Below, piece after piece: positions 3,685-64,000 of a DNA stretch of 64,000 nucleotides (positions are counted from its first letter, which is position 1; every line of letters begins with the position of its first letter). A program made the position numbers and the translations under genes. This DNA is from Spongilla lacustris. Its lineage: Eukaryota > Porifera > Demospongiae > Spongillida > Spongillidae. The stretch covers positions 5,059,505-5,123,504 of the forward strand of contig OX442423.1 in NCBI GenBank assembly GCA_949361645.1. Direction: 5' to 3'. The notes beneath the pieces were generated by a model. It was not told the DNA's origin. It was given only the letters and a program-made list of their open reading frames with translations, and ran no database searches.

Positions 3685-14216
<10,532 letters not shown>

Positions 14217-18360: not shown

Positions 18361-18679
18361 CTTGGTCTTTTTCAAACTTCCATCATTCTTCGCCATCAAA
18401 TAACTGGTGACTATTTCTGTAGAATTAATATATCGGTTATAACCTTCTCCATCATCAGGGTGCCCAGTCCTTACCTTCTGAGACCAATGAGTCACTGTTT
18501 TCCTCAACCTCATTTCTCATCTCAATGGTATCCTCCTCCACCTGTGGGTTGGTAGGAGCTGTTGTTTGGCAGCGTCATCTTAGCTACATGTACATGTATC
18601 TGCAAACCGTATTGTGCTGGTGACGGGCATCAGCGAACAAGGCCAGCAGGGTCACAAGAAGAGCCAGTTCCTTCAGCAT
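18361..18679 (-). CDS. Secreted peptide precursor, exons 1-3 (paralogue of 45001-48243)
   Basis: Exons (minus): 18679-18608 (signal peptide MLKELALLVTLLALFADA, then RHQHNT), 18541-18475 (VEEDTIEMRNEVEENSDS..), 18416-18361 (..VTSYLMAKNDGSLKKTK). Phases are 0, 1, 0. Introns use gtttgc..ccacag and gtaagg..ctacag. All three exons align with those at 48243-47934, with the signal peptide best conserved. A hydrophobic leader followed by an acidic, lysine-punctuated segment fits a secreted propeptide. No terminal stop or core region is found: downstream, in gene sense, a 693-bp hAT element interrupts after ~95 bp and I see no AG-NNN-GTAAGT array. It is either a truncated relative or one whose 3' exons lie beyond the transposon nest. 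Family function unknown. Confidence 0.6.
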
Positions 18680-20905: not shown

Positions 20906-21248
20906 TTGTCTATTTGCATCCGTGTGTACACCTGTACACATATTGGGTTATATGTGTACAGGGGAGCACAAATTACTTACCCTACCTTATCTTTTTAAGT
21001 AATCACATTTATCACTCAAAAATTTACATATGAGGACGATTAATTGATGGTCAATAATAATTCAAATTATTTGATTGTTATCTGACAAATAAACCACATT
21101 AGAAAAACAAAAAAAACATTGCGCATGTGACTGGTTATTATGGAGAGAAAAGGTGTACCTGTCTGTCTGTACAAGTAGAGGTAGAGGAAGTACAAGTACA
21201 AGTGGTGGAGGTGCACCTTTTGGTGAAACGGATCAAGTCACTGAACCG

Positions 21249-23174
21249 ATGGACATTATTGATGACAGTGAAGACACAGAACAAGAAGTGGATGGTGAGC
21301 CTCAAGAGGAGACTGCTACTCATCTGTATGTTCATGGTGTAGCTTGGGTAAAAAGTCTTGGTCGCACCTTATGCCCAGCAGCTAGTAATGGATTCTCCCA
21401 GCCTACCCAATTAAGTATGTACAATTATGCTGATGCCACTGTGTTTGAGTACTTCTTAGCTTGTTTTCCCTCTAATCTTGTTGATGAGATATGCATTTTG
21501 ATGATGCAAAAAGGACGCGAGCAAAGAAAAGGCTGTCCATTTACTGTGACTAAAGGAGATTTCTGGCTTTTTATGGGCTACCTTTTATACATTCTTTGCC
21601 ACCCAATGGATCTACCCATTCAAGACTACTGGGAGGGTCCTCTGTCTACCAAGTATGAAAGTTGCTCAGCTTTTGTGAAGCATGACATTGGCAAGTTTGG
21701 ATTAAGCTACGGAAGGTTTCGCAGACGGATGCAAGCATTCACACTACCGCAGTATCCAGCCATTGAAGGTAAAAATGATCTCTTTTGCTTTATTCGAAGG
21801 TTTGTAGACGAATGGAATGTGGCAATGCAACATTGCATTTCTCCAGGCAAATTTCTAGTGGTAGATGAAAGTATGGGCCAATGGTTAGGTAAAGGAATGC
21901 CAGGATTGATGTACGTTGCAAGGAAGCCAACTCCCAATGGAAGAGAGGGTCATACTACTGCTGATGCTGAAACAGGTTGCATAATATTCTATGAGGTGTA
22001 TGAGGGGAAGATACTAATGGCAGAAAAGGAACATGTAAATGAACTAGGGGCTGGTACTGCCATTGCATTAAGACTCACTGCACCATGGGTGCATTCTGTC
22101 AGAATTGTAATTCTTGACAGTGGTTTTGCAAGCTTAAAAACTGCCAAAGCATTAGCTGAAGTTGGTTTGTACATGATTGGAAATGTAAAAACAGCTCACA
22201 GTGGTTTTCCCAAAAAGTGGCTTAATAGCCAAGTGTCTCAAAGGGGAGATCGTGCTTGTGCTACTCATTCCTTTACTATGCATGGTAGGCAGATGGAAGT
22301 TTTGGCTGCAATAGACAAAGATAAACAGCCCATGTCCCTAAGCAAGGGTACCACTTTGGAAAGGCACTTCACTGTAAGGCATAGCAGTGGCGAGTGGCAG
22401 ACAAGAACTGCAACTCTGGAACAGTGGCACATACATGAACTTTATCGTGCCAATTTTAAAGCAGGAACTACCAGCATGGGTACCACTTTGGAAAGGCACA
22501 TCACTGTAAGGCATAGCAGTGGCGAGTGGCAGACAAGAACTGCAACTCTGGAACAGTGGCACATACATGAGCTTTATCGTGCCAATTTTAACGCAGGAAC
22601 TACCAGCATGGGTACCACTTTGGAAAGGCACGTCACTGTAAGGCATAGCAGTGGCGAGTTGCAGACAAGAACTGCAACTCTGGACAAGTGGCACATACAT
22701 GAACTTTATTGTGCCAAATTTAACGCCATAGACAAGCATAATTCCAAAAGACAAGGAGCAACATCATTTGAAGACACCTGGAAAACACACAGCTGGTGGG
22801 TCCGTGACTATCAAATATTGTTCGGTATGTCAGAGGTAAATGCATTCCTCCTCTGGAACAGGTTCAAGCCTTCCCATGCAATAAGCATGACACACTTTCG
22901 TTTGCAACTTTGTCACCAGATGTTGACCAATCAATGGATTCAGGAAGAGAGAGAAGCTGCTTGCAGAAAAGTGATACTATGTGATGAAGAGGAAGATACT
23001 GACACTGTCCATGAACTAGTGCATTGCGATAGGGGACACTGCAGAATGTGTGGTGTTGTTACACAATGGCGATGTGCCTGCACCCCCCAAAGTGGTAGTG
23101 CAAGTGGTAAGAAACGAAATGATGCATCAGCTATGTTTTTGTGTCCTGTGTCAAAGAGGAGATGTTTGATTTGA
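21249..23174 (+). CDS. piggyBac transposase (DDE_Tnp_1_7), intact, with internal triplication
   Basis: The open frame runs from 21153; the first in-frame ATG is 21249 (MDIIDDSEDTEQ), giving about 641 aa. The acidic N-terminus and the core with FLVVDESMGQW, VILDSGFASLKTAKAL and FNAIDKHNSKRQG match the PGBD/piggyBac fold; the three Asp of the DDD triad are visible. The C-terminus has a Cys/His-rich domain (HCDRGHCRMCG..CAC). Between the second and third catalytic Asp a 132-nt (44-aa) unit starting GTTLERH occurs three times in tandem (22347, 22479, 22611) with few differences. This is unusual, because it lengthens the segment just before the third Asp. The enzyme family catalyses TTAA-specific cut-and-paste. 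The frame is uninterrupted, so the copy may be recent or domesticated. Confidence 0.9.
   Translation: MDIIDDSEDTEQEVDGEPQEETATHLYVHGVAWVKSLGRTLCPAASNGFSQPTQLSMYNYADATVFEYFLACFPSNLVDEICILMMQKGREQRKGCPFTVTKGDFWLFMGYLLYILCHPMDLPIQDYWEGPLSTKYESCSAFVKHDIGKFGLSYGRFRRRMQAFTLPQYPAIEGKNDLFCFIRRFVDEWNVAMQHCISPGKFLVVDESMGQWLGKGMPGLMYVARKPTPNGREGHTTADAETGCIIFYEVYEGKILMAEKEHVNELGAGTAIALRLTAPWVHSVRIVILDSGFASLKTAKALAEVGLYMIGNVKTAHSGFPKKWLNSQVSQRGDRACATHSFTMHGRQMEVLAAIDKDKQPMSLSKGTTLERHFTVRHSSGEWQTRTATLEQWHIHELYRANFKAGTTSMGTTLERHITVRHSSGEWQTRTATLEQWHIHELYRANFNAGTTSMGTTLERHVTVRHSSGELQTRTATLDKWHIHELYCAKFNAIDKHNSKRQGATSFEDTWKTHSWWVRDYQILFGMSEVNAFLLWNRFKPSHAISMTHFRLQLCHQMLTNQWIQEEREAACRKVILCDEEEDTDTVHELVHCDRGHCRMCGVVTQWRCACTPQSGSASGKKRNDASAMFLCPVSKRRCLI
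22347..22742 (+). repeat. 132-bp x 3 in-frame tandem repeat inside transposase
   Basis: Each unit opens ggtaccactttggaaaggca and encodes GTTLERH(F/I/V)TVRHSSGE. The last unit runs into the AIDKHN motif. The period is exactly 132 nt, so the reading frame is preserved. Confidence 0.95.
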
Positions 23175-39419: not shown

Positions 39420-40821
39420 TGATAGGTGAGCCGCATCGTAACCCTGATCATGCCGATTTCGTTCCAAGTGTGTTTTCCACAGCACATAAGCGTACAGGGG
39501 AAAGGGTTTTCGTTCAGCAGCGATATGAAAGACTGCAGGAAAGAACGAAGAAGAGGACGAAGAGGTTATCTGAATTTCAGAAGACATTGGAAGTTGCAGA
39601 AGTCGTTGAACAGAATGATGAGGAGACATATGGGAATGATGGTGATGAACATGAACATGTTGGAGAAATGAACATTGTACATGAGATTGATATTACCAGT
39701 GCTCACAATGATGAAGAGCAAACTGTACCCATCATTACAGAGGACGTTATAGATGCTGCATGCTGCCACATTTGTTCAGGTATCAGGGAATCAACAGTTT
39801 GTGAAGGAGCAAGAAACCCAAACTGAAACCTTTGTGGAGGAACTGATGACCAAGGTACATGTACATGATTTAATTGAAAAGTATAAATCCCTTAACCATC
39901 AGCTGCAAGATTGTGCATTTTCATTTAAGATAATTGAAGCAAATGATAATTTGACAGCTTTTTATACAGGTTTACCATCTTGGGTGGTGTTCCTTCACGT
40001 ATACATGTACACCGTGCCTTATGTTCCCCAAGGATGCTCCCTTTCTTCTATGGATGAACTATTTCTTACACTGGCCAAACTAAGGCTTAAATTTATGCAT
40101 AATGATCTTGCCTGTCGTTTTCAAATTTCTGAAAGTACAGTTTCCCGTATTTTCCATAGGTGGCTGGATGTTCTGCATGACAAACTACAATTTTTACTTC
40201 TCTGGCCATCACAGGATACTATTAGGGAGAATATGCCACTGATATTTAAACAACTCTACCCCAGATGCAGATGCATAATTGATTGCTCTGAAATTTGTAT
40301 TGAAACCCCGTCATGTTTTCGTGTCAGAGCACAGACATATTCAAACTATAAAAAGCATAATACAGCCTTAAATTCTTTATTGCCATTACTCCTTGTGGTA
40401 CAATTTCATTTTTGTCGGATTGTTGGAATGGTCTTGTTTCTGACAAAGTTCTAACGCAGGAGTCAGGAGTTTTGGATTTATTAGAACCAGGGGACACAGT
40501 TCTTGCTGACCGTCAGTGGCTTCACCATTGATGAAAATGTCATTTTGCGTGGAGCAAAATTGGAAATACCTGCATGCTTTTACACGAGGAAAGAAGCAGC
40601 TATCTCAAGAAGAAGTTGAAAGGTCCAAGCAGCTATCACAAGTTCGCATCCATGTTGAAAAATGTATAGGATTATTGAAGAACAAGTATACTATATTGAA
40701 AGGAACTTTACCTATATGTCTAGTAGAAAATGATTCTGATACTCATGGATCTACCATTGACAAAATTTTGATAGTTTGTAGTGCATTAACCAATTTGCCA
40801 GCAAGTATTGTACCTGAATAA
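39420..40821 (+). pseudogene. THAP + DDE_4 transposase (ISL2EU/Harbinger-like), frameshifted
   Basis: 39420-39826 carries the C-terminal end of a THAP finger (PDHADFVPSVF) and an acidic linker. 39753-40454 carries the helix-turn-helix region (LACRFQISESTVSRIFHRWL) and catalytic blocks IIDCSEICIETPS and [12 protein letters not shown] shift near 40370 moves the frame to [19 protein letters not shown] and [12 protein letters not shown], and another near 40515 to [16 protein letters not shown] and RIHVEKCIGLLKNKY, which ends at 40821. The N-terminal THAP cysteines were not found; a G/C-rich TIR-like insertion at 39360-39425 sits just upstream. Family members are cut-and-paste transposases. Several frame changes, with no intron signals at those points, argue for a dead copy. 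Confidence 0.8.
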
Positions 40822-40916: not shown

Positions 40917-42650
40917 TTAATTGGTTTGATTGACACAGTACCATTCACCTCGCGGAATGCAATCTAGACCAACACAACCAACATGAAACCACTTATAAGG
41001 ACAATCGTTGTTGTCACACCCAATCATAAGTCCCTCTTCCACATTGCGGCAAATGCAGTACAGCTGTTCAACTTGCTTAGACGACTGCTGTGTAGAGCTG
41101 CAGCTGGTCTCATCATCTATGCTTGTAGCATTTGGACACAAGATCTGAGGGAGTATCACCTTCACGTAGAAAAGGTCTAGCTTGGGCTGTATTTTGCCCC
41201 ACACCATCGGATCTCTTGTGATTCTTTCAAGATCCATGCCACAAGTAGTCCAGCATACAAAATCACAATATGGTCTGTCACAAATAGCCAGCTGACTCTG
41301 TATTTGATAATAATATGCATGTGTTTTTGAATGCTTTATACCTCCTTCACTGTGCTCTAAATAGAAGTTGGCTGTGTCAACTGCAGCTGCAGGATCCCTG
41401 TCTCGTATGCTGTATGGACATTTAATCTCTATCACACCCTTACCACAGCAGGTGCATGATACAAGTCCATCTGGTGAAGCTCCCAAATTTGGGTAGAATA
41501 GGCCAGCTTGTTCTATCTTGAAATTCACGTGAGTCTTCTTTATTTCCTGCCTGTACTCTTCACGGGCACAAGGCTCTTTCTCCAACCCCCAATCCAGAGC
41601 ATGAATTTCCATACTACCAGAATACTGTTCTTTGTTAATCCCTTCAACAAGTGACTGTGATGGAGACAAAATACTCGTATGGCATACAGCACTGAATTTG
41701 GATGCTGTAATCCGACCCTTTCGATGTGAAAACCACAATACAAATTGCGTCTGCAGCTTTGTACACTCCTCTAGGTAGTCTGCTTCTCCTTGTATTATCT
41801 TTAGACCCTCTCTGAAAATGCGATCACACTCTATCTCTAGCTCATCCTTGCTGATTGCGCTGCATCTTGGTTGATGCAAGTTCATGATTATATAAGCCTG
41901 GTAGCTTCTTAACAGCCAGTGTTAAAGGAGGAGGAGCAGACACTAGTGGTTGTAGTTGGGTTAAAATAGCAGATTTCGGCATTATTGCTTTCAACCTTTG
42001 AAGACCATTTTCTGGTCATGCGAGAATGGCTGCCGCCATTTCGAATTGGTGGCCAATATTCAGCTGGTATCATTGGTAGGTTGAGGAGCAACACTAAGCT
42101 TTGACCTTTTTAATTGGATGTCAGCAATACGAGCAGGCTGGTGCTAAATGATAAATATATAAGCAATGGCATAGGCTTGATATACAATAGATATGCACTT
42201 ATATATTAGTACTAAACACTTCATTCCATTGACAAGGGCTGGATGTAATAGCGGTGTATCCATTACTTGTAGCAGCTTCTACTTTGAATAGGATGGCAGC
42301 AACATGGGAACACCCTTCACCTAAGCTGATGTAAAATAAATATCATATGCACATAATACATTTGATTTCATAATGATTACATGTAGTATGCTCACCCAGC
42401 CATGTACAGTGGGCTGACACTATATCTCCAGATTTCTTGGTCGCTACCCAAGCGCTGTTAGCATTTTCTGGGTTTTTCATGCTTGGGTTCACGAGAGCCT
42501 TAAGTATCACACACTCACTTGTGTTTCTTAGATCCCAAATCTCAACAGTGCGAACAAATCCACTCGTGAAATAGTTGTACGCATCCAATTGCTTCCACTG
42601 CAGCATTTGCTGGCGTGTGTAGACCCCAGGCAGTATTCCGCCCTGCATTT
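40917..42650 (-). CDS. SWIM / YqaJ-type nuclease / PHD finger protein (transposon-encoded)
   Basis: Main exon 41885-40917 (322 aa): exonuclease core with HRKGRITASKFSAVCHT, GLEKEPCAREEY, GASPDGLV and VIEIKCPYS, the conserved pieces of YqaJ/lambda-exonuclease-like proteins (the D and ExK residues are present). Its C-terminus is a PHD finger (LYCICRN..GCDNNDCPYKWFHVGC). Upstream minus-strand exons fit the usual N-terminus: ~42650-42400 (YTRQQMLQWKQLDAYNYF..), then ~42305-42205 (GEGCSHVAAILFKVE), the two halves of a SWIM zinc finger; 42143 onward reads HQPARIADIQLKRSKL. An in-frame stop near 42065 leaves the joint to the main exon unresolved. It lies convergent to the DDE_4 transposase; ISL2EU-type transposons are known to encode such a pair. 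Confidence 0.8.
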
Positions 42651-43959: not shown

Positions 43960-44915
43960 GAAGTAATGTTCATAAAGCTGTACACTTGTTAGTTACCTAT
44001 CTACTTCACCAGCTGTCCACACCCTCATCACACACATGATACATTTGGCATAAGGGAGGATATATTACCCAATCTTAAGCTGTTACCATGGCAATGAGTA
44101 CCACAATGCCAGATGGAAGCATACAATGGTGACTCTGTGAGGTTCAGGCAAAAATACTGATCATCTTCCACTGCTCAATGCTCAATGGGATTTAGCACAA
44201 TAACCTTAGTTTCCTTCCGGCAGTACCAGAGATCCACTTCTTATAGACAGCTAATCTCCAGTGAGTCACTGGCAATACTTCTTCTTAAATATCACAGGTG
44301 TCATCATCTTTGTCCTCTGTAGGATGTTAAGGTTCTTCCTCACACAAACAACCAAGCTTGGAAAGGTTGTCAATACTATGACAGTGGTACCTAGTGGTAG
44401 TCCTGGACCTATGGATACCTCTGGACCCTATGCCGGCGGGGCTAGTGATATTTTTTGCATGTGATATGAATAATTAACAAAAACCCTTTCAGTGTCATGC
44501 TTCACGAGACAAGTGTGCTTGCAGAAGATGTACTAAGTTAGTCAGTGGGCATGTGACCACCCACTCAAGGATATGCAGAAGAATACAGATGTAATGGAAA
44601 GGTTAACACTTCATAACATCAGTCCTAATGAAACTACAGTCACTAAATATCTTTAAGCAGCTGCAATTACATTTAGCCAATGGTATCCACAAGCTTTTCT
44701 CAAACCTGCGTGCAGATGCAACATGAAAAATGTGCACACAAACCTCAAATCACTTTGTTAGTCACTTTGATAACTGTTTAAATAAGCAACTGACTAATTA
44801 ATAACCAAGTTTACCCTCTATATCGTATGCATTACTCAAATGCACCCGTGGTGAAAAAGAATAAGTAGGTGTGTTTTAAGTAGCAATGAGAAATACAACA
44901 TCATAGAATAGTACT
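43960..44915. other. 3' flank of microexon gene, no clear coding content
   Basis: Downstream of the proposed TAA at 45001-45003 in gene sense. It has a decayed repeat unit (44870-44960) with a 9-nt interval between caatgcag and gtaagtact instead of 3 nt. No poly(A) signal identified with confidence. Confidence 0.4.
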
Positions 44916-44919
44916 TACA

Positions 44920-47880
44920 TGTAATCACTGCATTGTGAAAAGGAATAAGTAGACATGTTAAGGTGCAATAAATGGGAAATGTAACATCATTGATACTTAC
45001 TTACTTCATTGTTCATAACAGTATCCATGGTAACAAGGAATAAGTAGGCATGTTAAGGGTGCAATGGGAAATGTAACATCATTGATACTTACCTTTTGCA
45101 TTGTTCACAATAGTATCCATGGTGACAAGGAATAGGTATGCATGTTAAGGTGCAATGGGAAACGTAACATTGAAGATACTTACTCCCTGCATTGTTCATA
45201 ATAGTATCCATGGTGATAAGGAATAAGTAGGCATGTTAAGGTGCAATTGGAAATGTAACATTGTTGATACCTACCCACTACATTGTTCATAATAGTAGCC
45301 ATGGTGACAAGGAATAAGTAGGCATGTTAAGGGTGCAATGGGAAATGTAACACCATTGATACTTACTACCTGCATTGTTCATAACAGTATCCATGGTGAC
45401 AAAGAAGAAGTAGACATGTTAAGGTGCAATGGGAAATGTAACATGGATACTTACAAGCTGCATTGTTCATAATAGTATCCATGGTAACAAGGAATAAATA
45501 GGCATGTTAATTACAAGGTGCAATGGGAAATGCAACATCATTGATACTTACGAACTGCATTGTTCATGATAGTATCCATGGTAATAAGAAATAAGTAGGC
45601 ATGTCTAGGTGCAATGAGAAATTTAACATCATTGATTCTTACAGGCTGCATTGTTCATAATAGTATCCATGGTGACAAGAAATAAGTAGACATGTTAAGG
45701 TACAATGGGAAATGTAACATCATTGATACTTACCCACTGCATTGTTCAAATAGTATCCATGGTGACAAGGAATTAGTAGCCATGTTAAGGTGCAATGGAA
45801 AATGCAGCATCATTGATACTTACTAACTGCATTGTTCATAATAGTATCCATGGTGACAAGAAATAAGTAGGCATGTTAAGGTGCAATGGGAAATGTAACA
45901 TCATTGATACTGACAGGCTGCATTGTTCATAATAGTATCCATGGTGACAAGAAATAAGTAGACATGTTAAGGTGCAGTGGGAAATGTAGCATCATTGATA
46001 CTTACCAACTGCATTGTTCATATAGTATACATGGTGACAAAAAATAAGTAGACATGTTAAGGTGCAATGGGAAATGTAACATTATTGATACTTACAGTCT
46101 GCATTGTTCATAATAGTATCCATGGTGACAAGGAATAAATAGGCATGTTAAGGTGCAATGGGAAATGTAACGTCATTGATACTTACCCACTGCATTGTTC
46201 AAATAGTATACATGGTAACAAAGAATAAGTAGACATGTTTAGGTGCAATGGGAAATGTAACATCATTGATACTTACCACCTGCATTGTTCATAATAGTTT
46301 CCATGGTGACAAGGAATAAGTAGGCATGTTAAGGTGCAATGGGAAATTTAACATCATTGATGCTTACCAGCTGCATTGTTCATAATAGTATCCATGGCGA
46401 CAATGAATAAGTAGGCATGTTAAGGTGCAATGGGAAATGTTACATCATTGATACTTACAGTCTGCGATTATTGTATCCATGGTGACAAAGAATAAGTAGG
46501 CATGTTAAGGTGCAATGGGAAATGTAACATCATTGATGCTTACCTTCTACATTGTTCAAAATAGTATCCATGGTGACAAGGAATAAGTTGGCATGTTAAG
46601 GTGCAATTGGAAATGTAACATCATTGATAAAAAACTTACAGGCTGCATTTTTCATAATAGTATCCATGGTGATAAGGAATAAGTAGGCATGTTAAGGTGC
46701 AATGGGAAATGTAATGTCATTGATACTTACTGCCTGCATTGTTCATAACAGTATCCATGGTGATGAGGAATAAATAGACATGTTAAGGTGCAATGGGAAA
46801 TGTAACATCATTGATACTTACTGCCTTCATTGGTATCCATGGTGATAAGGAATAAGTAGACATGTTAAGGTGCAATGGGAAATGTAACATCATTGATACT
46901 TACCACCTGCATTGTTCATAATAGTTTCCATGGTGACAAGGAATAAGTAGGCATGTTAAGGTGCAATGGGAAATTTAACATCATTGATGCTTACCAGCTG
47001 CATTGTTCATAATAGTATCCATGGCGACAATGAATAAGTAGGCATGTTAAGGTGCAATGGGAAATGTTACATCATTGATACTTACAGTCTGCGATTATTG
47101 TATCCATGGTGACAAAGAATAAGTAGGCATGTTAAGGTGCAATGGGAAATGTAACATCATTGATGCTTACCTTCTACATTGTTCAAAATAGTATCCATGG
47201 TGACAAGGAATAAGTTGGCATGTTAAGGTGCAATTGGAAATGTAACATCATTGATAAAAAACTTACAGGCTGCATTTTTCATAATAGTATCCATGGTGAT
47301 AAGGAATAAGTAGGCATGTTAAGGTGCAATGGGAAATGTAATGTCATTGATACTTACTGCCTGCATTGTTCATAACAGTATCCATGGTGATGAGGAATAA
47401 ATAGACATGTTAAGGTGCAATGGGAAATGTAACATCATTGATACTTACTGCCTTCATTGGTATCCATGGTGATAAGGAATAAGTAGACATGTTAAGGTGC
47501 AATGGGAAATGTAACATCATTGATACTTACTCCCTGCATTGTTCATAATAGTATCCATGGTGACAAGGAATAAGTAGGCATGTTAAGGTGCAATGGGAAA
47601 TGCAACATCATTGATACTTACAGGCTGCATTGTTCATAATAGTATCCATGGTGACGAGGAATAAGTATACATGTTAAGGTTCAATGGGAAATGTAACATC
47701 ATTGATACTTACTGCCTGTATTGTTCATAATAGTATCCATGGTGACAAGGAATAAGTAGGCATGTTAAGGTGCAATGGGAAATGTAACATCATTGATACT
47801 TACTCCCTGCATTGTTCATAATAGTATCCATGGTGACAAGGAATAAAGAGGCATGTTAAGGTGCAATGGGAAATGTAACG
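44920..47880. repeat. ~91-bp tandem repeat array, about 33 units
   Basis: Unit (plus strand): gatacttac-NNN-ctgcattgttcata.. followed by atagtatccatggtgacaag, a gaataagtaggcatgttaag block and gtgcaatgggaaatgtaac. The period is mostly 91 bp; intervals between triplets are 79-94 bp. The backbone is well conserved while NNN differs from unit to unit. This array is the intron/microexon part of the minus-strand precursor gene. Confidence 0.97.
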
Positions 47881-48243
47881 CGAGACATAGTTATATGGCC
47901 ATGATTTATAGAACACTGATGAATCATTCTAACCTGTGTCTTCAGACCTTCAGCATTCTTTGCCCTCATATAGCTGATAATCATTTCTGTTTTTAAATGT
48001 ACATGGTATGTACCTTCTTTCTCAGCAGGGCATGCAGCTCTTACCATCAAGAATGTCGTCCCTGCTAGCGACCATGTCGCCATCCTCACCTCTGATAGCG
48101 ACCTCATCGCTCATCTCCGCGGTATTCTTCAGCTACGGGTGGCGAAGATCTTTTAATACACATCATTGATGTTAGCAAACCTGGGGACGGGCATCAGCGA
48201 ATAAGGCAAGCAGGGTTACAAGAAGAGATAGTTCCTTCAGCAT
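45001..48243 (-). CDS. Secreted peptide precursor encoded by 3 normal exons and ~30 three-nucleotide microexons
   Basis: Exon 1 48243-48181: signal peptide MLKELSLLVTLLALFADA + RPQ. Exon 2 48132-48045: LKNTAEMSDEV.. acidic. Exon 3 47986-47934: ..ISYMRAKNAEGLKTQ, ending phase 0. Then single-codon exons, one per ~91-bp repeat, each between ..gcag and gtaagtatc. Plus-strand starts with minus-strand codons: 47804 GGA, 47713 GCA, 47622 CCT, 47531 GGA, 47449 GCA, 47358 GCA, 47267 CCT; 47171 AAG, 47086 ACT, 46995 CTG, 46904 GTG, 46822 GCA, 46731 GCA, 46640 CCT; 46544 AAG, 46459 ACT, 46368 CTG, 46277 GTG, 46187 TGG, 46096 ACT, 46006 TTG; 45915 CCT, 45824 TTA, 45734 TGG, 45643 CCT, 45552 TTC, 45455 CTT, 45367 GTA, 45275 TGG, 45184 GGA; 45093 AAG (acceptor AG lost, probably skipped); 45001 TAA stop. 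The product would be a Pro/Trp/Leu-rich C-terminal peptide of ~30 residues. Unspliced, the array has stops in all frames. Function unknown; the design recalls ribosomal precursors of proline-rich sponge peptides (inference). Confidence 0.65.
46271..47524. repeat. 627-bp higher-order tandem duplication inside the array
   Basis: 46271-46897 and 46898-47524 appear identical over seven units, including the rare variants gcgattattg and gataaaaaacttac and the short unit cttcattggtatcc. In coding terms it duplicates the seven-codon run GCA GCA CCT AAG ACT CTG GTG. Confidence 0.93.
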
Positions 48244-60896: not shown

Positions 60897-63800
60897 GGTA
60901 GGACAGTGTCCAGTGTCACAGAATGTGCATAGGGTGACTGCAGATGGAGCGAATGAGCTTCCACTGCATGCCTTGTTGACATGTCTACAGGAATGGTAGG
61001 GGTGATTAGAAAAATTCTTAGCTGATACCTCACTAGTGAGAAATGTGTGGGGAACACCCCTTGTGTATTTTTGGTGTAATTTCTGGGACTCTATCAAGTG
61101 TCACAGAATGCATAGGGTGACTGCAGATGGAGCGCATGTGCTTCCACTGCATACCTTGTTGACACATGTATAGGGAGGGTAGGGGTGGTTAGAAAATGTT
61201 TAGCTGAGTCTCCACTAGTGAGACATGTGTGTAGTACACCACTGCTGAGTTGGTGTAATTTCTGGGACACTGTCAAGTGCCACATAATGCATTGGGTGAC
61301 TGCAGAATGGAGCAAATGTATTTCCACTGGATGCCTTGTTGAGCCATGTACAGGAAGGTTAGGGGTGGTTAGAAAAATGTTTAGCTGAGTCCCCACTAGT
61401 GTGACATGTGTGATTAACACCCCTGGTGTATGTTTGTAATTTCTGGGACTCGATCAAGGGTCACAGAATGCATTGGGTGACTGCAGATGTGCTTCCACTG
61501 CATGCCTTGTTGACACATTTACAGGAAGGGTAGGGGTAGTTAGTAAAATGTTAAGCTGAGTCCCCACTAGTGAGACATGTGTGATTAACACCCCTGGTGT
61601 ATGTTTGTAATTTCTGGGACTCTATCAAGTGTCACAGAATGCATAGGTTGACTGCAGATGGAGCGAATGTGCTTCCACTGCATGCCATGTTGACACATGT
61701 ATAGGGAGGGTAGGGGTGAATAGAAAAATGTTTAGCTGAGTCCCCACTAGTGAAACATGTGTGTGGTACACCAATGTTGAGTTGGTGTAATTTCTGGGAC
61801 ACTGTCAAGTGTCACAGAATGCATTGGGTGACTGCAGATGTTCTTCCACAGCATGCCTTGTTGACACATTTACAGGAAGGGTAGTGGTTGTTTGAAAAAT
61901 GTTTAGCTGAGTCCACACTAGTGAGACATGTGTGGGGAAGACCCCTGGTGTATTTTTGTAAATTCTGGGACACTGTCAAGTGTCACAGAATGCATTGGGT
62001 GACTGCAGATGTGCTTCTACTGCATGCCTTGTTGACACATTTACAGGAAGGGTAGTGGTTGTTTGAAAAATGTTTAGCTGAGTCCACACTAGTGAGACAT
62101 GTGTGTGGAAGACCCCTGGTGTATTTTTGTAAATTCTGGGACACTATCAAGTGTCACAGAATGCATAGAGTGACTGCAGAATGGAGCAAATTGTGTCCAG
62201 TGCATACCTTGTTAAGCCATGTACAGGAAGGGTAGGGGTGGTTAGAAAAATGATTAGCTGAGTCCCCAATAGTGAGACATGTGTGGGGAAGACCCCTCGT
62301 GTGTTTTTGTAAATTCTGGGACTCTATCAAGTGTCACAGAATGCATAGGATGACTGCAGATGGAGTGAATGCACTTCCACTGCATGCCTTGTTGACACAT
62401 TTATAGGGAGGGTAGGGGTGAATAGAAAAATGTTTAGCTGAGTCCCCACTAGTGAGACATGTGTGTGGTACACCACTGTTGAGTTGGTGTAATTTCTGGG
62501 ACACTGTCAAGTGTCACAGAATGCATAGAGTGACTGCAGAATTGAGCAAATGTGTTTCCACTGCATACCTTGTTGAGCCATTTACAGGAAGGGTAGGGGT
62601 GGTTAAAAAAGTGTTTAGCTGAGTCCCCACTAGTGATACATGTGTGGGGAAGACCCCTGGTGTGTTTTGTAGTTTCTGGGACTCTATCAAGTGTCATAGA
62701 ATGCATAGGATGACTGCAGATGGAGTGAATGCACTTCCACTGCATGCCTTGTTGACACATGTATAGGGAGGGTAGGGGTGGTTAGAAAAATGTTTAGCTG
62801 AGTTTGCACTAGTGAGACATGTGTGTGGTACACCAATGTTCAGTTGGTGTACTTTCTGGGACACTGTCAAGTCATTGGGTGACTGCAGAATGGAGCAAAT
62901 ATGTTTCTACTGCATGCCTTGTTGAGCCATGTACAGGAAGGGTAGGGGTGGTAAGAAAAATGTTTAGCTGAGTCCTTAATCTGTGGGGAACACCTCTTGT
63001 GTATTTTTGTAATTTCTGGGACTCTATCAAGTGTCACACATTGAATAGGGAGACTGCAGATGTGCTTCCACTGCATGCCTTGTTGACACATTTACAGGAA
63101 GGGTAGGGGTGGTTAGAAAAATGTTAAGCTGAGTCCCCACTAGTGAGACATGTGTGATTAACACCCCTGGTATATGTTTGTAATTTCTGGGACTCTATCA
63201 AGTGTCACAGAATGCATAGGTTGACTGCAGAGGGAGCGAATGTGCTTCCACTGCATGCCTTGTTGCCACATGTATAGGGGTGAATAGAAAAATGTTTAGC
63301 TGAGTCCCCACTAGTGAAACATGTGTGTGGTACACCAATGTTCAGTTGGTGTAATTTCCGGAACACTGTCAAGTATCACAAGATGCATTGGGTGACTGCA
63401 GATGTGCTTCCACTGCATGCCTTGTTGACACATTTACAGGGAGGGTAGGGGTGGTTAAAAAAATGTTTAGCTGAGTCCCCACTAGTGAGACATGTGTGAT
63501 GAACACCCCTAGTGTATGTTTGTAATTTCTGGGACACTATCAAGTGTCACAGAATGCATAGAGTGACTGCAGAATGGAGCGAATGTGTGTCCAGTACATA
63601 CCTTGTTAAGCCATGTACAGGAAGGGTAGGGGTGGTTAGAAAAATGTTTAGCTGAGTCCCCACTAGTGAAACATGTGTGGGGAAGACCCCGGGTGTGTTT
63701 TTGTAAATTCTGGGACTCTATCAAGTGTTACAGAATGCATAGGATGACTGCAGATGGAGTGATTGCACTTCCACTGCATGCCTTGTTGACACATGTATAG

Positions 63801-64000
63801 GGAGGGTAGGGGTGGTTAGAAAAATGTTTAGCTGAGTCCCCACTAGTGAGACATGTGTGGGGAAGACCTCTGGTGTGTTTTTGTAAATTGTGGGACTCTA
63901 TCAAGTGTCACAGAATGCATAGGATGACTGCAGATGGAGTGAATGCACTTCCACTGCATGCCTTGTTGACACATGTATAGGGAGGGTAGGGGTAGTTAGA
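60897..64000. repeat. ~178-bp satellite array, 17 or more copies, running off the window
   Basis: Unit landmarks: agtgtcacagaatgcatagg, gactgcagatggagcgaatg, ttccactgcatgccttgttg, ggaagggtaggggtggttag, tttagctgagtccccactag. The period is 170-180 bp. Units fall into types by the segment after acatgtgtg (attaacacccctggtg, ggtacaccaatgttga, gggaagacccctggtg). Minus-strand frames through it are artefacts. Confidence 0.95.

Follow-up and report, generated by a model that had tools for sequence, protein, structure and literature searches.

We analysed a 64,000-nucleotide stretch of the freshwater sponge Spongilla lacustris (positions 5,059,505 to 5,123,504 of contig OX442423.1, assembly GCA_949361645.1; hereafter the window), which holds a tandem array in which each unit carries a variable triplet between an acceptor-like and a donor-like site. 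All coordinates are positions within this whole stretch, and the array is read on the minus strand. By Tandem Repeats Finder (TRF), the interval 44931–47879 comprises 32.6 copies of a 91-bp unit, in line with the approximately 33 units counted in the original prediction, a note made from the letters of the window that had proposed a gene assembled from three-nucleotide microexons. Three leader exons precede the array on the same strand. Leader exon 1 (48181–48243; 63 nt, ending in phase 0) encodes the signal-like peptide MLKELSLLVTLLALFADARPQ and has a related exon ahead of all 21 arrays examined; leader exon 2 (48045–48132; 88 nt) encodes an acidic propeptide, and gene models of Ephydatia muelleri connect a segment matching it to exon 1; leader exon 3 (47934–47986; 53 nt) continues the propeptide (..EMIISYMRAKNAEGLKTQ), and E. 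muelleri model P0001 runs through the same three segments. The three exons join in frame to give MLKELSLLVTLLALFADARPQ and then the acidic propeptide, and exon 3 ends in phase 0, as the original prediction had stated. By coordinates, an intron of 127 nt separates exon 3 from the first unit.

The array itself (45184–47806, minus strand) consists of 30 intact 3-nt exons, each an AG-NNN-GT unit, and 29 introns that all fall in the range of 79–94 nt given earlier; its triplets read GAPGAAPKTLVAAPKTLVWTLPLWPFLVWG. One-codon exons 1 to 5 are GGA (G, 47804–47806), GCA (A, 47713–47715), CCT (P, 47622–47624), GGA (G, 47531–47533) and GCA (A, 47449–47451). Exons 6–11 (46904–47360; first bases 47360, 47269, 47173, 47088, 46997 and 46906) encode A, P, K, T, L and V. 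Exon 12 (GCA, A; 46822–46824) is the counterpart of exon 5, and exons 13–18 (46277–46733; first bases 46733, 46642, 46546, 46461, 46370 and 46279), again A, P, K, T, L and V, are the counterparts of exons 6–11. Exons 19–30 (45184–46189; first bases 46189, 46098, 46008, 45917, 45826, 45736, 45645, 45554, 45457, 45369, 45277 and 45186) encode W, T, L, P, L, W, P, F, L, V, W and G. The limitation to the residues G, A, P, K, T, L, V, W and F that had been reported is true for these 30 intact units. Units 5–11 recur 627 nt away as units 12–18 with identical triplets, a recent seven-unit duplication, and the 30 triplets therefore cannot be counted as independent of one another.

Downstream of exon 30, an AAG (K) unit at 45093–45095 has AA in place of AG ahead of it and is possibly skipped. 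It is followed at 45001–45003 by a TAA stop with AG and GT both intact (unit 33 of 34), the stop that the original prediction had assigned to its terminal unit; behind it stands one more AG..GT stretch, enclosing 9 nt. A candidate motif for a terminal exon that opens with its stop, AAAG/TGA, lies at 44750–44764 on the minus strand (at 44764 and again at 44752) and is also found behind other arrays. The product predicted from this layout is the leader followed by GAPGAAPKTLVAAPKTLVWTLPLWPFLVWG(K)-stop.

The window array is a member of a large family whose products resemble secreted peptides that are processed and in part amidated; the original prediction had proposed neither point. In searches of the sponge's own genome (248,560,934 bases in 51 contigs) it matched at least 71 places (best 40 of 110 candidates scored). 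We read 20 further array loci (L009–L028), which with the window make 21 arrays, and a related signal-peptide exon lies upstream of 21/21 (nhmmer E 1.4e-22 to 4.6e-7); in L024 this exon is 2.1 kb from the array, and in L023 the reading frame is lost soon after the signal segment. The signal exon alone gave at least 40 matches (best 40 of 57 candidates), of which 15 are in array loci L009–L028, 2 in the window, 13 in 12 loci fetched by means of this exon (L029–L040) and 10 elsewhere. Ten of these 12 loci hold 3-nt units, L039 only five of them; L039 is about 4 kb from a match of the array search, and the other 11 are absent from the array matches listed.

A pattern independent of the repeat sequence (three GTAAG donors, two AG-NNN-GTAAG steps and intron spacing) matched the genome 2409 times, compared with 431 matches in a reversed control. 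The places listed are the first 100 of the 2409, and some of these are simple repeats of the GTAAGGGGAGG kind. The stretch fetched for L031 contains no 3-nt units, and pattern matches are listed just downstream of it. Four pattern-found loci with strongly diverged introns (L041–L044) were read, and the 3-nt spacing is kept in them; a related signal-like peptide is present in two of the four, L041 (MIKELALVVVLLTLFADARPQ) and L043 (MLKELLLLTILALFANALPSK). That some arrays have unrelated introns was considered and rejected, as L041, L042 and L043 match the unit profile, with a strength from weak to moderate (8, 8 and 19 matches, E ≤ 1e-3). L041 and L042 lie on C1 at about 10.354 and 10.373 Mb. 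Across the window and 32 fetched loci there are 546 pattern matches for 888 units, and a rough extrapolation puts the genome total at approximately 3000 one-codon exons in the order of 100 arrays. The longest array has 58 one-codon exons in a row (L020). Repeated units also yield homopeptides or short periods: L017 has 16 consecutive GGA, L030 a run of seven Asp and L009 GPP periods, at a cost of about 91 bp per residue.

That the variable triplet sits between a conserved acceptor and donor, as described for the window, holds well beyond chance over 760 units from the 21 arrays: the three triplet columns carry 0.02, 0.10 and 0.65 bits, versus 1.94/1.85 for AG and 1.96/1.96 for GT. Every other column carries at least 0.83 bits, and only sparsely covered columns at the alignment edge exceed AG and GT. 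A profile search of 33 sequences returned 971 units with a similar column profile, and the segment between the sites measured 3 nt in 906 of them, 6 nt in 22 and 9 nt in 5, was missing in 25 and had other lengths in 13; 882 of the 971 are intact 3-nt units with AG and GT or GC. Introns span 50–124 nt (median 88 nt), and the donor reads GTAAGT in 709/880 units. CTTAAC is present in 256/801 introns at a median of 48 nt upstream of the exon. This motif resembles the U12 branch site; U12-type splicing was dropped because the donors are GTAAGT. Exonic and intronic donor strength correlate weakly (Spearman −0.09, p 0.005), a result that we did not use as support.

Substitutions relative to the unit consensus point to selection on the acceptors. 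In the last ~38 intron nucleotides, 23 AG-creating substitutions were seen against 472 expected, the expectation being taken from the same substitutions in other sequence contexts, whereas in the first intron half 369 were seen against 383 expected. Because AG creation is rare only in these last ~38 nucleotides, the acceptors look selected as splice sites. Not a single AG was counted among 14418 dinucleotides ending 14–31 nt upstream of the exon, and counts climb again from ~44 nt upstream (40 at 44–49), near CTTAAC. Further upstream, AG is below its base-composition expectation too, and the substitution test finds no avoidance there. Such a depletion marks an AG-exclusion zone that extends from the branch site to the acceptor, a feature that unspliced DNA would not be expected to have.

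The triplets have the character of codons. Stops account for 2 of the 882 intact 3-nt units, compared with 35.3 expected and never fewer than 17 in 5000 column shuffles; the two are the window unit already described and the last unit of L026, and two further stops (L025 last unit, L028 first unit) belong to units whose sites are not intact. Across the genome the triplets draw on all 20 amino acids, as ordinary coding peptides do, and when translated they form cysteine-framework, proline-rich or collagen-like peptides. Examples read from the triplets in order are CDPSSDCLADCQILPRPGCYAKCC (L014) and CDSMLGSACKRIGCTFYPRGGRGGGKCCC (L018), the latter with one unit, revealed by unit-wise alignment, absent from the first triplet reading; L027 gives a proline-rich and L009 a collagen-like peptide. 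A conserved signal is followed by a cysteine-rich, hypervariable mature part in L011, L014, L018, L019, L020 and L023, and cysteine is lacking from the window array and L009, among others. Third bases strongly favour T (CCT in 144/149 Pro codons, TGT in 87/92 Cys codons). The splice-chain model omits units in, for example, L015, L016, L018, L019, L021, L024, L026, L032 and L038–L044, and peptides are partial there.

The ends of the peptides are also patterned. A -GK or -GRR C-terminus closes 7/31 arrays (L010, L011, L012, L013, L020, L027 and L029); L017, L035, L037 and L040 end in -GK or -GR in the splice-chain model, and the window ends in -G(K). These endings are reminiscent of amidated peptide hormones and may be an amidation-like signal. 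The sponge genome gave 20 exon-wise matches to PF01082 (copper monooxygenase), which may come from the amidating monooxygenase PHM or from other copper monooxygenases. The cysteine-rich L014, L016, L018, L019 and L023 have cysteine C-termini. Behind the last unit, AAAG/TGA or AAAG/TAA is found at a distance of 59–150 nt in 11/31 arrays versus 0.5 in shuffles, as if a terminal exon started with the stop codon.

We compared paralogues unit by unit, aligning them through their introns; a global alignment had misplaced unit insertions (in L018/L019, changed codons went from 8 to 5). Four near pairs (L018/L019, L011/L012, L033/L034 and L037/L040) were pooled by our own choice, being the closest of eight compared except L035/L037. 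The pool shows differences at 21/303 triplet bases versus 143/8980 flank bases (Fisher p 7.5e-8). Of the codon changes, 12 are non-synonymous and 2 synonymous, and none creates or removes a cysteine. In L016/L023, 38/72 triplet bases versus 169/2076 flank bases differ, with 0 synonymous and 19 non-synonymous changes, 15 of these 19 codons differing by 2 or 3 nt; 3 cysteines are kept and 2 gained or lost. L018/L023 (26/75 versus 180/2175 bases; 0 synonymous, 14 non-synonymous) and L029/L030 (12/48 versus 108/1351 bases; 3 synonymous, 6 non-synonymous) were compared in the same way. Single units present in one paralogue only (K in L019, R in L012) amount to in-frame gain or loss of a codon.

We read these loci as serially spliced one-codon exons that probably encode fast-evolving secreted peptides of this freshwater sponge, and from the genomic comparison we give this a probability of roughly 0.9. 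The serial splicing of one-codon exons proposed in the original prediction is well supported by the phase-0 leader, the conserved AG and GT, stop avoidance and the AG-exclusion zone, with further support from the cysteines kept in near paralogues and the stop-first motif behind 11/31 arrays. Leader exons 1–3 would provide the signal peptide and the acidic propeptide, and the array would encode the mature-peptide part, one residue per 3-nt exon with a short intron on either side, the stop being supplied by a terminal unit or by a terminal exon that opens with a stop codon. U2AF/U2 and U1 bound to sites 3 nt apart should exclude each other sterically. Because the acceptor AG and the next donor GT are 3 nt apart, exon definition is unlikely and serial splicing is expected. 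The gene layout, selection at the splice sites and the coding nature of the triplets are shown here; we infer that transcripts would contain all units and be spliced by intron definition from the 5′ end onward. Each ligation would add a codon and expose the next donor, mostly GTAAGT, in a stepwise scheme resembling recursive splicing in which every step gains 3 nt. Duplication or loss of units would add or remove whole codons in frame, and selection would diversify residues and retain cysteines and C-terminal processing signals; secretion, amidation and a biological role of the peptides are inferred as well. Tentatively, the units may also act as codon cassettes, their related introns serving as substrates for unequal exchange that would add, remove and reorder residues without harm to the frame, and in-frame skipping may give a combinatorial library of secreted peptides per array in a single sponge.

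Several observations weigh against serially spliced one-codon exons. The support comes from genomic comparison, with both splicing and peptides deduced from it. Among the 971 units, 89 are without an intact 3-nt AG-NNN-GT, and the unit statistics treat units related by descent as separate, so the p-values overstate independence. L036 has the leader, one 9-nt unit and no 3-nt unit, and in the pattern match L044 we found no signal peptide and no similarity to the unit profile. The window contains a second family leader (MLKELALLVTLLALFADARHQHN.., 18370–18679, minus strand), apparently broken, with a signal exon and exon 2/3-like sequence and other DNA behind; no array is detectable behind 18679–18370. 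Among the paralogues, L037/L040 have no triplet change, and L035/L037 differ at 2/27 triplet versus 35/765 flank bases with 2 synonymous and 0 non-synonymous changes. The triplet-change excess as a whole is no clean measure of positive selection, because T-ending codons lower the chance of a synonymous change and the introns are themselves constrained. Three protein-collection searches, one of them with a leader alignment, returned a spliced array in 0/39 proteins, which contain leaders only. Finally, contiguous (processed) copies of nine spliced arrays (876 nt of joined triplets, from the 14 arrays for which joined triplets were available) were absent from the sponge genome, a result that shows little.

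Among other explanations, the one that survives best is that the units are alternative cassettes, with transcripts taking only some of them, in order, and in-frame skipping producing combinatorial peptides. Skipping any 3-nt phase-0 exon keeps the frame, and damaged acceptors or donors, as in the 89 units without intact sites, would be skipped; on the other side, cysteine positions and order are retained between near paralogues and -GK or -GRR stands last before the stop-first motif, both of which argue for ordered full-length use, and donors are strong throughout (709/880 GTAAGT). We consider partial use as the general rule unlikely. A dedicated DNA-level mutator that diversifies the triplets, with selection merely removing stops, would account for triplets changing much faster than nearby introns, frequently with 2 or 3 nt altered together (L016/L023). 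Yet in near pairs the codons for cysteine tend to be kept, and T predominates at third positions, so protein and splice-context selection explains much, and some multi-base changes may reflect unit exchange or alignment error; such a mutator is highly improbable. Marginally less credible still is that the whole array is one compound intron, the leader being joined to the terminal exon and the triplets being relics. In its favour, Schistosoma micro-exon genes are likewise described as hard to annotate (PMC10526429), and 6/8 named E. muelleri models stop at the close of exon 3 or within the first unit. These E. muelleri models, however, are AUGUSTUS predictions (PMC7385117) and would not be expected to build 3-nt exons. 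Relics, moreover, would neither avoid stops and AG nor retain cysteines amid other residue changes. A minisatellite with chance splice-like motifs, its variable triplet a non-coding mutational hot spot, can virtually be dismissed: the unit is indeed a genome-wide tandem repeat and arrays do grow by unit duplication (window exons 5–18; 16 GGA in L017), but a signal exon stands ahead of 21/21 arrays, stops are avoided, AG avoidance is confined to the acceptor side, near-pair cysteines are retained, the 3-nt spacing persists in arrays with strongly diverged introns, and the signals of coding and splicing selection are at odds with functionless satellite DNA.

Relatives of the leader among the 39 proteins are E. 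muelleri gene models and further contig proteins. The E. muelleri models run through exons 1, 2 and 3 as predicted, and of the eight named models, six go no further than the end of exon 3 or the first unit. Model P0003 continues ..KPQ-K-VSITNV, which we interpret as a single 3-nt exon and, after it, continued translation into a GTAAGTATC-type intron. Neither two conceptual precursors nor P0001 matched any Pfam family above cut-off, described toxin families included. No array of one-codon exons stood among the papers listed by searches of the open PubMed Central (PMC) literature; subscription papers lie mostly outside it, and earlier notice is possible. The word microexon is absent from the main text of the E. 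muelleri genome paper (PMC7385117).

The closest known genes are the micro-exon genes (MEGs) of Schistosoma, which are described as secreted, with a signal peptide and strings of very short exons, mostly multiples of three, that automatic annotation handles poorly (PMC10526429). Their exons are mostly 15 bp (6–81 bp in the text, 3–81 in the abstract), 10–20 per gene, with introns of 0.1–5 kb (PMC10526429), and accelerated evolution is reported for them (PMC4350168). The sponge units are likewise short and multiples of three, and a hydrophobic signal-like N-terminus is present in 21/21 loci. In contrast to MEGs, the mature part in this sponge, which is no flatworm, consists almost entirely of 3-nt exons, of which as many as 58 follow one another, and the introns between them are related and have a median length of 88 nt. 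The arrays thus do not share the profile of 15-bp exons, 10–20 per gene and 0.1–5 kb introns, and for most of the pairs examined, change is greater in the triplets than in the introns. If classed with micro-exon genes, the arrays would be at least an extreme variant.

Exons this small have precedents. A 3-bp exon of human RPS24 shows that the spliceosome can include one (PMC12686416), and 1-nt exons are spliced in plant APC11 and VPS55 (PMC8831610). Those genes have one or a few tiny exons in an otherwise ordinary structure, whereas in the sponge long arrays would form the product. Recursive splicing, as outlined in PMC13149111, removes very long introns stepwise at AG/GU ratchet points, ligation setting the next donor beside the joined acceptor. 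Ratchet points as a rule add nothing, whereas each step in the sponge has 3 nt between AG and GT, contributes one codon and removes a short intron.

Conotoxins combine a conserved signal with a hypervariable mature part. Sponge knottin precursors, the stryphnines, have a signal region and an intermediate region in addition to a mature peptide rich in cysteine (PMC13418204). Some arrays share the plan of these two precursor types, but their mature part is coded codon by codon, and many arrays are without cysteine. Sponge phoenixin precursors carry an amidation site (PMC9004410). Like neuropeptide precursors, some members of the family have a signal-like peptide, a propeptide and a C-terminal Gly-basic motif; unlike them, each precursor holds one hypervariable peptide, other members end in cysteine, and sequence kinship is not apparent.

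If true, this would be an extreme case of exon–intron organization in which nearly every residue of the mature peptide has its own exon, and introns that change less than exons in most pairs compared reverse the usual picture. The arrays would then offer a natural test bed for minimum exon size, for strictly serial splicing and for the relation of exon architecture to evolvability, and would constitute a large family of secreted peptides, some of them amidated or rich in disulfides, in an animal that has no neurons. The mature parts can be expected to escape standard gene prediction, as in the six E. muelleri models that stop before or in the first unit.

Elsewhere in the window, further coding and repeat features were noted. 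A 673-aa open reading frame (ORF; 21153–23174, plus strand) has a DDE_Tnp_1_7 transposase domain (Pfam E 1.6e-34), which we take to be piggyBac-type, and contains a 132-bp internal repeat at 22341–22726. A transposase fragment with HTH_Tnp_4 (39753–40454, plus strand; E 3.8e-20) also resembles the start of DDE_Tnp_4, though below cut-off, and the ORF at 40917–41885 (minus strand) has a YqaJ-like recombinase domain (E 1.3e-20), its C-terminal part being weakly PHD-like, below cut-off. An ORF at 13755–14216 (minus strand) carries a Pfam F-box, which agrees with the F-box part of the label FBH1 given earlier. A tandem array of 17.5 copies of a 180-bp unit occupies 60912–64000, up to the window end.

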